NCBI GenBank assembly: GCA_951812525.1
Contig: OX638316.1
Coordinates: 3,838,506 to 3,902,505, forward strand
DNA from: an uncultured Poribacteria bacterium
Lineage (GTDB): Bacteria > Poribacteria > WGA-4E > WGA-3G
Length of the DNA: 64,000 bases
Reading direction: 5' to 3'
Shown: positions 42,950 through 48,203 of the stretch, piece after piece
How the letters are laid out: each line of letters begins with the position of its first letter
Position numbering within the stretch: position 1 is the stretch's first letter
The notes under the pieces: generated by a model
Database searches by the model: none
Told to the model about the DNA's origin: nothing
What the model saw: the letters and a program-made list of their open reading frames with translations, nothing else
Program-made: the position numbers and the translations under genes

Positions 42950-45565
42950 TTATTTCCGTATCACCATTTTCCGCGTGGCAGTAAAATCTCCTGCCGTTAG
43001 TACATAGAAATAGATACCACTGGCGACCTGTTCGCCAAATTCATTCCGACCGTCCCAATGCGCCGCGCGGCTACGAGACGCATAAGCACCCATAGCCTGA
43101 TGTCCCAATTCGAGTGTCCGAACCAATTGCCCATTAGCTGAATAGACGGCTATAGTGACATTCGCAGGTGCTGCTAACTGGTAGGGTATCCAAGTTTCCG
43201 GATTGAACGGGTTAGGATAGTTCGGTAACAGTGCAGTCATTCTTGGAGCCAATGTCTCCAGAATTTGCTCAAGTACCTGAATCCCGCGCGCATAGGAAAC
43301 GCCATTCGGGAGTCTTGAGGTTTGGTTCAGTTGAGATGAATCGCGCTTGGCAAGGCGTAACCACTGTTCTACCTGAGCTGCCGTGAGTTGTTCACTGGCG
43401 TGTCCGTTGGCAGCTGGTGCCGCTGCGACATTTCCTAAGGCATTCGCAATTAAAACAAGATCTTGAATGTTCACCTCACCGTCGCCGTTGAGATCTGCCT
43501 CACTGACGGTCTCAGTAGCCCCTCCGAAACTCGCTGCTATCAGGACTATATCTTGGATATTGATGATACCATCCTCGTTCAGATCGCCAAGGACTTCTGC
43601 TACGATGGTAGCAATATCGGGTATTATTGGGAATGCCCACAGGAGGACAGTGCCATCGAAACTGCCACTTGCAATTGTACTCCCGTCTGGACTCACTGCA
43701 ACACTCGTGACAGAAAATGTATGTCCCTCAAACGTTTCCAACTGCTCTCCGGTGGCAGTGTGCCACAAGCGGATAGTAGCATCGTAACTTCCAGTGACAA
43801 GGGTTTTACCATCTGGACCGAATACAATACTGGTAGCATTCGCTGGATTCTCGGCGGGGACATCCTCTGTCAATTCTTCTACGCCCTCTTCTCCAGGATC
43901 GGTAGGTTGGATGAAAGTCTGTTGGCGTTCAGCTGTATCGACATCCCATAAGGAAACCGTGTCGCTCCCGCCACTCGCGAGCGTTTTACCATCGGGACTG
44001 AAGGCGACCGTCCAAACGTCGTCCTCGTGTTCCGTGATAGTGTGCAATACCTCGTGTGTTTCGGTATCCCACAAGCGAATGGTATCGTCTCTGCTCCCAC
44101 TTGCGAGCATGCTACCATCAGGACTGAAAGCCAGTGCTTCGACACCCGCCTCGTGTTCCCGAAGCGTGGTAATATGTTCACCCGTGGCGACATCCCATAA
44201 CCCGATGTTGTCGTCCTCGCTCCCACTTGCGAGCATGCTACCATCAGGACTGAAAGCGAGACTTATCAGGTAAGAGTAATGGCCTCTGAGTGTTTTCAGA
44301 TGTTCACCCGTGACAGCATCCCACAAGCGGATGGTGTCATCTTGACTCCCGCTTGCAAGCGTCCGTCCATCCGGAGAGAACACAACAACATCAACATCAT
44401 CTTGGTGTCCGATAAGGGTATGTCGAAGTTCACCGGTATCGGCATCCCAGAGACGAATGGTTTTGTCCCAACTCCGCGTAGCGAGGATGCTGCCATCAGC
44501 ACTGAACGTAACGCTCGCGACGACATCTGTGTGTCCAGTAATAGTTTTCAGGTGTGTGCCTGTGACAGGTTCCCAGAAGCGTATGGACGCATCCCAACCA
44601 CCGGTAGCAAGTGTACCACCATCGGGCGTAAAAGCCAGTCCGTAGACATCAGCAGTGTGTCCAGTAATGGTTCTAAGATGTACGCCTGTTGCTGCGTGCC
44701 ACAAGCGGACGGTATCGTCCTCACCTGCACTCACGAGAAACCGTCCGTCAGGACTGAATTTAACGTCGTAAATACCAGACGTATGTCCGGCGAGCGTTTG
44801 CTTGATTGTCCAGGTTGCGGTATCCCATAGGTGGATAGTCGCGTTTAAATCTCCACTGGCGAGTGTCATTCCATCAGGACTCAGTGCCATACTGGCGACA
44901 TCATCTCTATGTCCGTCAAGCGTCTGCAGCCGTTCGCCTGTTTCCACGTCCCACACACGGATGGTATCATCTCGACTTGCACTGATGAGCATGCTATCAT
45001 CAGCGTTAAATAGGACGACACTGACACCTTCTGTATGACCTTCAAGCGTTTTCAGAAGTTCGCCTGTTTCAGGATTCCATAGATGGACAATGTCATCTCG
45101 ACTGCCACTTGCGAGTGTAGTACCGTCAGAGTTGAAAGCAACGCTGCGGACACCTCTTGTATGTTCTGACAGTGTATGCAGAACATCGCCTGTTTCTGCG
45201 TCCCACAAACGGACACTACCGTCCCAACTCCCACCAGCAATCATACTCCCATCTGGAGAATATGCGAGTGCGGAAATGCCATAGCCGTCTGCAGTCAGTA
45301 GGGAAAGTTCTTCATCGGTTGCCGCATCATAAATCCAAACACCGAGGGAACCTGCACCGGCGAGCCGTGTCCCATCGGGTGAGTATATAATCTCGGATAA
45401 CCAGCCTTTGCCGAGTCGCGTTGTTGCGCCTTCAGGTAGATGCCATTGCGGGGAATCTTGAGCGAAGCTACTCGGTACATATAGAGTCAAAGTAATAAAT
45501 AATATTAGGAGTGTGGAAAGTCCAAATATACGCTTGAGCATTGTGCTTGGAAATGATTTTTTCAA
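42950..45565 (-). CDS. Exported 14-repeat WD40 protein with dockerin-like and C-terminal sorting-like domains
   Basis: An 871-residue exported protein. TTG at 45565 is chosen because AGGAG lies 10 bases upstream; the next ATG (45541) is 34 bases from it. Residues 1-36 are the signal peptide. Then 14 WD40 repeats (about 50-640), enough for two seven-bladed propellers, each blade with SPDG, GS.D.TIRLWD and GH-like turns; blade 12 carries a 20-residue acidic insertion. A dockerin type I-like pair of Ca loops, DLNEDGIINIQD and DLNGDGEVNIQD, lies near 658-710. The last ~90 residues (NYPNPFNPETW, then VASGIYFYVL, TRKMVIRK) match FlgD-like/type A sorting tails. Likely a surface scaffold. Confidence 0.88.
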   Translation of the reverse strand: MKKSFPSTMLKRIFGLSTLLILFITLTLYVPSSFAQDSPQWHLPEGATTRLGKGWLSEIIYSPDGTRLAGAGSLGVWIYDAATDEELSLLTADGYGISALAYSPDGSMIAGGSWDGSVRLWDAETGDVLHTLSEHTRGVRSVAFNSDGTTLASGSRDDIVHLWNPETGELLKTLEGHTEGVSVVLFNADDSMLISASRDDTIRVWDVETGERLQTLDGHRDDVASMALSPDGMTLASGDLNATIHLWDTATWTIKQTLAGHTSGIYDVKFSPDGRFLVSAGEDDTVRLWHAATGVHLRTITGHTADVYGLAFTPDGGTLATGGWDASIRFWEPVTGTHLKTITGHTDVVASVTFSADGSILATRSWDKTIRLWDADTGELRHTLIGHQDDVDVVVFSPDGRTLASGSQDDTIRLWDAVTGEHLKTLRGHYSYLISLAFSPDGSMLASGSEDDNIGLWDVATGEHITTLREHEAGVEALAFSPDGSMLASGSRDDTIRLWDTETHEVLHTITEHEDDVWTVAFSPDGKTLASGGSDTVSLWDVDTAERQQTFIQPTDPGEEGVEELTEDVPAENPANATSIVFGPDGKTLVTGSYDATIRLWHTATGEQLETFEGHTFSVTSVAVSPDGSTIASGSFDGTVLLWAFPIIPDIATIVAEVLGDLNEDGIINIQDIVLIAASFGGATETVSEADLNGDGEVNIQDLVLIANALGNVAAAPAANGHASEQLTAAQVEQWLRLAKRDSSQLNQTSRLPNGVSYARGIQVLEQILETLAPRMTALLPNYPNPFNPETWIPYQLAAPANVTIAVYSANGQLVRTLELGHQAMGAYASRSRAAHWDGRNEFGEQVASGIYFYVLTAGDFTATRKMVIRK

Positions 45566-45615
45566 TTTAAAATATCTCCTTTTCTGATAATTATGACCTA
45601 AGTTGCAATCTAAAA

Positions 45616-45637
45616 ATAATGATAATCCAATCATTAT
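45616..45637. promoter_or_regulatory. Fur-box-like palindrome upstream of the WD40 gene
   Basis: ATAATGAT (45616-45623) and ATCATTAT (45630-45637) around AATCCA; the left half runs on to ATAATGATAATC, twelve bases identical to the E. coli Fur consensus. A TATAAT on the minus strand (45638-45633) overlaps it, though no good -35 was found. It lies 51 bases before the WD40 start. Confidence 0.4.
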
Positions 45638-45826
45638 ATATCCCTCAAAGACAAATATAATCATATCAATTTAAATTATTCTATCCGTCCTTATGTAGAT
45701 GATTATACTTGAATTTGACTCATAGATCTATTTAAATCTGGGTATAATTTTAAAATTGGAGGATAGCCGAAAGGTATTCGCGGGAAAATAAATCCAGAAC
45801 CTATAAACTTCTAAAAACCGGTGATG

Positions 45827-47089
45827 TTACGCCAAGATCACAAACTCCAAACGACGGTGTGCCTCACGGAGTGCTGCTTCAACCGCTTCAGGTGTTTCTG
45901 CCCGTGCAAAGATAAAACCGAGATACCGTGCACCTTCCGGCAACGGAACGACCTCTCCGCCAATAGGGATGGTAATGTCTACTTCCGTAACGTCATTTAC
46001 TTTGCGGGCATCGGCTTTGCCGCGCACTTCTCCTAATATTCCGGCTTTCGGAACGGGAATCATCATCACGCCTGCTGCCTGTTTTTCGCGATGGAGTGTT
46101 TCCACAGGATGCCCAATGGCATGTCGAATTACGAGTTCCTCTAACGGCATTCCCGTGCCGAATCGCAGCGTACGGGCTCACAGCCCACCAATCGTCCGGG
46201 CAGCGATTTCAATGAGATGCGCGCCTTTTTCGTTGTAGCGTAATTCGGCGTGGACGGGACCGTGACGTAGTGCTAATGCGGAGGCGGCTTCTGCTGTTGC
46301 GCTTCGCAGTTCATCTTGGGTGTCCTGCGGTAGACGCGAGGGAGTAATGTACAGGGTTTCCTCAAAAAACGGACCCTCAAGTGGATCAGGTTTGTCAAAA
46401 AGTGCCAGCGTCTTGAGTTTACCTTCTAAGAGGATACCTTCAAGTGCCACCTCTATGCCAGGTATGTAATCTTCTACCAATACATCTGTGGATGGAGATT
46501 CTGCATTCGCGTCCGCATCCGTTTCTATAGCACGGAGGAGTGCTGCGACACGACGGAAAGCAAAAGTAAATTCATTCGGATTGTCTGCACGAATTACACC
46601 GCGACTTGCTGATAGAGAGAGCGGTTTGATAACACAAGGGAAATCGACGTGTTTCCTGATTTCAGCGATGTCGTCACAGGTTGAAAAACGTCTGAACTTT
46701 GGACACGAAACATCACGGGCTGACAGTGTATGCCGCAGGCGATATTTGTCGCGTGTGGCTTTCGCAGATTCAACCGGGTTGTGTGGAAGTCCGAGTGCCT
46801 CTGAAGCAGTGGTTGCAAGCAGCGTGGTATCGTCGTCAACGCCCACGATTGCAGAGATCGGATGTTCCGCAGCGAATGTGACGATTGTCTGCGTTGCAGC
46901 GGTTGGCGCGCTGAAGTCAAGCACAAGTGAATCTCGCGGTGAGAGATCAGCAGTTGTCGCCGCTTCCTCCGATGCAACAACCACTTCTACGTTGAGTTTC
47001 ATAGCTGCAGCGAGAAAATCAGGCGCACGATAGGTCCGCGTCGGAAGCAACAGGAGAATGCGCGGTTTTTCTAAGTTTTGTTCTGACAT
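45827..47089 (-). CDS. ATP-grasp domain protein with in-frame TGA (candidate selenoprotein)
   Basis: One ATP-grasp gene of 420 codons, read through a TGA at 46178-46180 (codon 304). Before it: an N-terminal domain (ILLLLPTRTYRAPDFL), DFPCVIKPLSLSASRGVI (the ATP-grasp Lys), VLVEDYIPGIEVALEGIL and HAELRYNEKGAHLIEIAART. After it the same frame continues ARTLRFGTGMPLEELVIRHA and an ~110-residue C-terminal domain with an intact stop. Family members, as I recall them, have Cys here (IGGLC). GAGG lies 6 bases before the ATG. A hairpin 17 bases past the TGA fits bacterial SECIS rules. Carboxylate-amine ligases make peptides or amides. A nonsense mutation remains possible. Confidence 0.7.
46145..46160 (-). 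promoter_or_regulatory. Candidate SECIS hairpin downstream of the in-frame TGA
   Basis: On the minus strand CGGCA (46160-46156), loop CGGGAA (46155-46150), TGCCG (46149-46145). The stem is perfect over five pairs, the loop has G at its second position, and the loop starts 22 bases after the TGA, inside the 16-37 range used for bacterial SECIS searches. An alternative fold pairs CCCGT with ACGGG nearer the TGA. Confidence 0.4.
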
Positions 47090-47249: not shown

Positions 47250-48203
47250 CTACAGGCGCGATCGGAGGATTTTTTGATACTCCGCATGGGCATCTTGCGG
47301 ATCCAACTCGCTGTCAATGACACGCCGGAGACACTGCACAAAGCCTATCGGTGCGTCTTCACCGAAAATCGTACGTCCAAACAAGGCAGCACGTCCGCCG
47401 TTACTGACAACACTGTGTGCCAGGGCAAATGTGCTACGGGCGTTTTGTCGAGGTCCGCCCAAGGCACCGATGACCAGTGTGGTATCGAATTGGCACAACT
47501 CAGTCCAGACATCAGCTGTTGTGTAAGCGGTTTTGATAAAACGCGGGCGTTGATGCTTCCGCAGATAGCTCATTGTGCGAACAATGGAATCGGCGACGTA
47601 CATGCCACGCTTTTCATCGTCCATCCCCGGCAATTTAACATTTGGTAAAAATACTTCTAACAAATGGTCGAAACCTTCAATTTCACCGACGACGTGCGCA
47701 AATTGCACATACGACTGCAGCATCCGCTCATCAGCGATCGGATCGTTGTTGAGGGTAATGGAGTATAGTCCGAGGTTAACTCGGCATTCGAGCGCAGGAC
47801 CGATTAGTGCCTCACAATAGCGTTGCATATCTTCTGGGAAAACCGTCTGAAATGGCATTGATAACCGGGAGGTATACACCCCGAACCGTGGGTTCCAGAT
47901 GGCTGTCTCTGAGTTCATTCGGACGATTGGCGTGATTGGTGTGTTTTCAAACAGGTTTTCTTCGAGTGCGAGTGTCTCTGCATCAGCCGGGGTCATCAGG
48001 AGTCCATCCAGCTGTCCGTCTGCAACAAGGTCGCGTTGGAGTTGCAGGAACTCAGCATGTGTTCGGTAGTGCGGTTTCGGATGCTGCACCTGTCCGAGTC
48101 CCTTAATGCCTGCGGATGCGAGTGGATCCGCAGCAAAAACCAGAATCGGGCTGCCTGCAAGCAACTCCGAATCAGCGAGTTTATCAAATATCCGATTGCC
48201 CAT
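47250..48203 (-). CDS. DhnA/DeoC-type class I aldolase-like TIM barrel
   Basis: A 317-residue TIM barrel resembling DhnA-family class I aldolases. RFIKTAYTTADVW has the Lys placed as the Schiff-base residue; LVIGALGGPR matches the phosphate-binding GGP strand, and GGRAALFGRTIFG the final strand where family members have GRNV/GRN. The N-terminal part (PILVFAADPLASAG, DGLLMTPADAETLAL) is more divergent. Substrate unknown. It lies 21 bases after priA and 160 before the ATP-grasp gene. Confidence 0.62.
   Translation of the reverse strand: MGNRIFDKLADSELLAGSPILVFAADPLASAGIKGLGQVQHPKPHYRTHAEFLQLQRDLVADGQLDGLLMTPADAETLALEENLFENTPITPIVRMNSETAIWNPRFGVYTSRLSMPFQTVFPEDMQRYCEALIGPALECRVNLGLYSITLNNDPIADERMLQSYVQFAHVVGEIEGFDHLLEVFLPNVKLPGMDDEKRGMYVADSIVRTMSYLRKHQRPRFIKTAYTTADVWTELCQFDTTLVIGALGGPRQNARSTFALAHSVVSNGGRAALFGRTIFGEDAPIGFVQCLRRVIDSELDPQDAHAEYQKILRSRL

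Follow-up and report, generated by a model that had tools for sequence, protein, structure and literature searches.

Does the single TGA codon inside an otherwise open ATP-grasp gene of an uncultured Poribacteria bacterium end the protein, or is it read as selenocysteine (Sec)? The gene lies in a stretch of 64,000 nucleotides (contig OX638316.1 of assembly GCA_951812525.1), here called the window, and was proposed as a candidate selenoprotein gene in a first-pass annotation. Here we present a set of features for the gene, its relatives and its genome, on the basis of which it is very probably a selenoprotein gene: the SelA, SelB, SelD and tRNA-Sec of the organism itself would decode UGA-304, giving one 420-residue ATP-grasp enzyme of the L-amino-acid-ligase type. 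We infer the insertion of Sec at this codon from sequence comparisons, which are described below together with the competing explanations.

Gene and domain features

On re-reading, the minus strand was confirmed to hold a single frame of 420 codons, as first annotated, with the TGA at codon 304 as its sole break and TAA as its terminator (Table 1). The initial assignment to the ATP-grasp class was borne out and could be narrowed to L-amino-acid-ligase-like by the Pfam domains and by the fold of PDB 3VOT. The LAL_C2 domain is located entirely 3' of the TGA. Regarding NCBIfam, no model was matched above its cut-off by the gene product.

Table 1. Features of the ATP-grasp locus (positions in the window)
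Feature	Position	Strand	Residues	Remarks
Full-length gene of the probable selenoprotein	45827..47089	-	420	L-amino-acid-ligase-like ATP-grasp, Sec predicted at residue 304; end includes TAA stop
ATPgrasp_N (PF18130)	46781..47008	-	28-103	Pfam 36 bits, above curated cut-off
ATP-grasp_4 (PF13535)	46175..46645	-	149-305	Pfam 110 bits; ends just beyond Sec
In-frame TGA, probably read as selenocysteine	46178..46180	-	304	Aligns with invariant Cys column
Candidate bacterial SECIS stem-loop	46145..46160	-		5-bp stem CGGCA/TGCCG; loop CGGGAA at 46155-46150
LAL_C2, L-amino acid ligase C-terminal domain 2 (PF18603)	45836..46063	-	343-418	Pfam 56 bits, above curated cut-off

The product of the upstream gene (47250-48203) weakly resembles class I aldolase-type enzymes, and the gene is kept beside the ATP-grasp gene in 30 Poribacteria loci. 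Downstream, a large WD40-repeat protein is encoded at 42950-45664; a similar gene follows in few relatives only.

An AlphaFold2 model of the protein (pLDDT 90) matched the L-amino acid ligase PDB 3VOT with a Z score of 39.9 over 397 residues (3.0 A, 26% identity), and the enzymes BacD, RizA and PurT/PurK with Z scores of about 31-32. As modelled, the protein has an L-amino-acid-ligase fold. Sec304 is located in the model where a short helix (302-307) starts, just after the strand bearing the E-I-A-A-R motif of the family. In a phmmer alignment it stands two residues past the position of BacD Trp332, which was reported to shape substrate recognition (PMC6920838), and six residues past Arg298, which aligns with BacD Arg328. 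Sec304 may lie within the substrate pocket.

Selenocysteine machinery and use of TGA

Profile searches for the Sec machinery were run on the whole genome, a single contig (C1) of 5.06 Mb. The four components that the first-pass annotation had named for this check were all found, with matches above the curated cut-offs: SelA (594 bits), selB (C1:2709354-2711252, 336 bits), the adjoining tRNA-Sec gene selC (C1:2709224-2709313, 78 bits) and selD (L012; C1:3914052-3914975, 358 bits). Within the phylum, selA is present in 72 of 85 genomes. The selD gene carries an in-frame TGA of its own (VKCAG-U-ASKL); this gene, itself a selenoprotein gene, is located approximately 11.5 kb past the right end of the window. 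In the three selenoprotein genes examined here (the ATP-grasp gene, selD and the CUAEP gene described below), UGA is followed by GC.

Seven of the 48 long ORFs in the window are terminated by TGA (the ATP-grasp ORF counted among the seven), and TGA is therefore not reassigned throughout, in agreement with the earlier argument that it cannot stand for Trp in all genes. Suppression or reassignment to a different amino acid would be compatible with the open frame taken alone, but the use of TGA at the end of other long ORFs, the presence of tRNA-Sec and SelB in the genome, and the occurrence of TGA at known Sec positions in the selD and CUAEP genes leave this explanation with almost no weight.

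Codon 304 in relatives

A genome-collection scan covering many phyla yielded 80 loci, of which 78 have TGT or TGC at codon 304 and two have TGA. In a 42-sequence cross-phylum alignment (with U written as C) the codon-304 column is invariant Cys, and an unrelated residue occurs at this position in neither the 80 loci nor the alignment. The Cys given for homologues in the first-pass annotation was thus correct, and the alignment then suggested returned only Cys or TGA. That the TGA falls exactly on this column is more than a coincidence. The two relatives with TGA (L023 and L053, 90% identical) belong to separately assembled genomes of Candidatus Poribacteria. Regarding the phylum, the gene was found in 54 of 85 genomes, with an in-frame TGA in three only, i.e., the window's own genome and those of L023 and L053, all of which have selA. 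A sequencing or assembly error is exceedingly improbable, given that codon 304 is TGA in these two separately assembled metagenome genomes as well.

In the tree, the three genes with TGA group together as a single clade (support 100/97) within the Cys-encoding Poribacteria; the nearest Cys relative, L050, has TGT and is 86% identical to the window gene or L023. Because of this position within the Cys forms, the simplest history would be a single recent Cys-to-Sec change (TGT/TGC to TGA) in the lineage from which these three species of sponge-type Poribacteria descend, by which an otherwise invariant Cys would have been exchanged for Sec at residue 304. Among genomes that have the gene, 64 of Methylomirabilota and 123 of Chloroflexota yielded no further TGA at codon 304. 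Two loci of the Chloroflexota were considered for an independent origin of Sec and rejected, both having Cys at codon 304: in L163 (G526) the TGA falls outside the aligned part, and in L164 (G280) a TAG aligns before the N-terminal end.

Selection downstream of the TGA

For codons 305-418, the comparison of the window gene with L023 gave a dS of 0.58 and a dN of 0.034 (dN/dS 0.059), the ratio for the codons before the TGA being 0.157. The corresponding comparison with L053 gave a ratio of 0.065 after the TGA, and the values across the TGA genes range from 0.059 to 0.072. The sequence 3' of the TGA is therefore maintained as protein, under strong purifying selection, in both TGA lineages. These values bear on a nonsense mutation, which would have left either a pseudogene in decay or a shortened but functional protein of 303 residues. 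A lone TGA would indeed end the protein where the ATP-grasp_4 domain ends, but the same TGA persists between lineages approximately 12% apart in DNA, it falls exactly at the invariant Cys column, and the sequence behind it shows a dN/dS of about 0.06 and no other lesion; this explanation is very unlikely.

A split enzyme, in which translation stops at the TGA and restarts at an in-frame ATG (46150), is less likely still. This ATG, 10 codons past the TGA, does open an ORF of 107 codons; however, the ORF begins within the conserved FGTGM segment, the GGGA that abuts the ATG is too near for a usual ribosome site, codons 305-313 show zero amino-acid changes among the three TGA genes, and the genes of the Cys relatives encode a single chain. 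The gap in synonymous changes at codons 306-314 of the three TGA genes was discarded as evidence, since three other stretches of the gene stay unchanged over a greater length. Decoding of UGA-304 as Sec remains the preferred reading.

Candidate SECIS element

The published model of the bacterial SECIS allows a loop of 3-9 nt, a stem of 4-16 bp with G in the first two loop positions, a spacing of 16-37 nt and an energy of <= -7.5 (PMC13188914). The hairpin at 46160-46145 had been advanced in the first-pass annotation as evidence for Sec. Its position and geometry were upheld: the loop begins 22 nt after the TGA, G is at the second loop position, and the hairpin fits the published geometry, with an energy of -5.9 kcal/mol for the hairpin alone as compared with -7.5 in the model. 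The wider region folds otherwise, an alternative structure at 46176-46152 having a lower predicted energy (-12 to -13).

The weight given to the hairpin was not upheld. For the background, the long ORFs of the window were scanned behind each of their 210 Cys codons; a hairpin of the same geometry occurred at 23% of these codons with an energy of <= -3.2 kcal/mol and at 8.6% with an energy of <= -5.8 kcal/mol, so that the present one hardly stands out. A similar hairpin is formed in the Cys relative L050 (TGT), where its persistence is explained by the conserved FGTGMS stretch, whose codons make up most of it. In view of the background count and the L050 hairpin, the structure was dismissed as proof of Sec. 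The hairpins of L023 and L053 have a G-U pair in the stem and reach -3.2 kcal/mol only. A Ser-to-Pro change in the window gene (TCG to CCG), absent from L023, L053, L050 and L024, turns the stem G-U into G-C; as a sign of a SECIS element, this strengthening of the stem is suggestive only.

Radical SAM partner

Outside Poribacteria, the gene often adjoins genes for an NfuA-like protein and for a radical SAM (seleno)protein with a CUAEP/CCAEP tail (NF040546; 646 bits at a cut-off of 500). The flanking sequences of 18 loci hold the tail motif, as C-TGA-AEP in ten and as CCAEP in eight (loci with conserved neighbourhood: L054, L056, L061-L065, L067-L070, L076, L078, L079, L082, L085, L094 and L095). 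In the Poribacteria genomes inspected the two genes are not neighbours; the window's genome has the radical SAM gene in its Sec form (C1:526189-527523), unlinked to the ATP-grasp gene (C1:3884335). Of 30 Poribacteria loci, 15 (L143 and L150 among them) have genes for DUF169 (PF02596) and short-chain dehydrogenase-like proteins beside the CUAEP radical SAM gene.

Among the 85 genomes of the phylum, 49 have both genes, five the ATP-grasp gene only, one the radical SAM gene only and 30 neither (Fisher 1.1e-16). For the window's family alone, in which the absences are scattered over genera, the value is 5.6e-9. (Note that both p-values are too small, because genomes that are not independent are counted as such.) Outside the phylum, 28 of 35 genomes bearing the ATP-grasp gene have the radical SAM gene. 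The NF040546 radical SAM protein is a probable pathway partner of the ATP-grasp enzyme. Its second-best NCBIfam match is ArsL (NF040542), with a score of 294 bits, below the cut-off of 450; for ArsL, transfer of a 3-amino-3-carboxypropyl group to arsenite has been predicted (PMC8552651). With ArsL as the next-best family of the partner, a metalloid substrate for the pathway is suggested by sequence similarity.

Proposed function

The enzyme would use ATP to activate a carboxylate for coupling with an amine (or a different nucleophile), presumably in a pathway shared with the CUAEP radical SAM protein. The thiol or selenol at residue 304 might hold or attack a soft, thiol-reactive substrate, e.g., an arsenic-bearing amino acid from an ArsL-like reaction; this role is put forward tentatively and is the least certain of the steps. 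Rather doubtful, though conceivable, is the wider proposal that the two proteins constitute an undescribed metalloid or selenium pathway, in which the radical SAM protein would build an amino acid containing a soft element (e.g., arsenic) and the Cys or Sec in the active-site region of the ligase would bind this element or form an acyl-thioester or acyl-selenoester before joining a second molecule. To our knowledge, a ligase without plain redox activity is an unusual place for Sec, which counts against the selenoprotein reading, as do the weak hairpin and the lack of an independent Cys-to-Sec change among the Methylomirabilota and Chloroflexota genomes.

If the soft-element pathway were real, the protein would be the first ATP-grasp ligase with selenocysteine. 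As a selenoprotein, it would bring a ligase fold into a list in which redox proteins predominate, which raises the question of what selenium does in a reaction that may do without redox chemistry. A natural Cys/Sec pair for kinetics (window gene or L023 versus L050) is provided by the near-invariant Cys and the recent Sec, and through the link to the CUAEP radical SAM protein, seen in many phyla, two orphan families gain a shared testable pathway.

Comparison with known systems

The closest known enzymes are the L-amino acid ligases BL00235 (3VOT), BacD/YwfE (3VMM) and RizA (4WD3), which share with the Poribacteria protein the ATP-grasp fold over the whole length and the ATP-grasp_4 and LAL_C2 domains, at approximately 17-26% identity. 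They differ in lacking the invariant Cys/Sec 304, the aligned residue in the phmmer alignment being Met in BacD and Ser in BL00235. The CUAEP/CCAEP radical SAM protein belongs to an unrelated family and has its own Sec in the C-terminal tail, with the same alternation of Cys and Sec as in the ATP-grasp protein. The arsQML arsinothricin cluster, to which ArsL belongs, was described without an ATP-grasp gene (PMC8552651).

Regarding selenoproteins, neither an ATP-grasp enzyme nor an L-amino acid ligase is among the 119 prokaryotic families of the 2026 catalogue, from whose table NF040546 is also missing (PMC13188914). The 2022 selenoprotein table likewise holds no ATP-grasp enzyme, and an earlier prediction may exist outside these two lists; a literature search on ATP-grasp selenoproteins, selenocysteine in Poribacteria and CUAEP/CCAEP returned nothing relevant. 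The two lists are in line with the remark in the first-pass annotation that a Sec-containing ATP-grasp ligase would be new. The Poribacteria protein resembles the catalogued families (PMC13188914) in having UGA at the Cys position of its relatives, the Sec machinery in its genome and a candidate stem-loop 22 nt downstream, and differs from them in that there is no redox motif such as UxxC near residue 304. The mechanism by which UGA-304 would be decoded is the standard one; novelty lies in the class of the enzyme and in the pathway linked to it.
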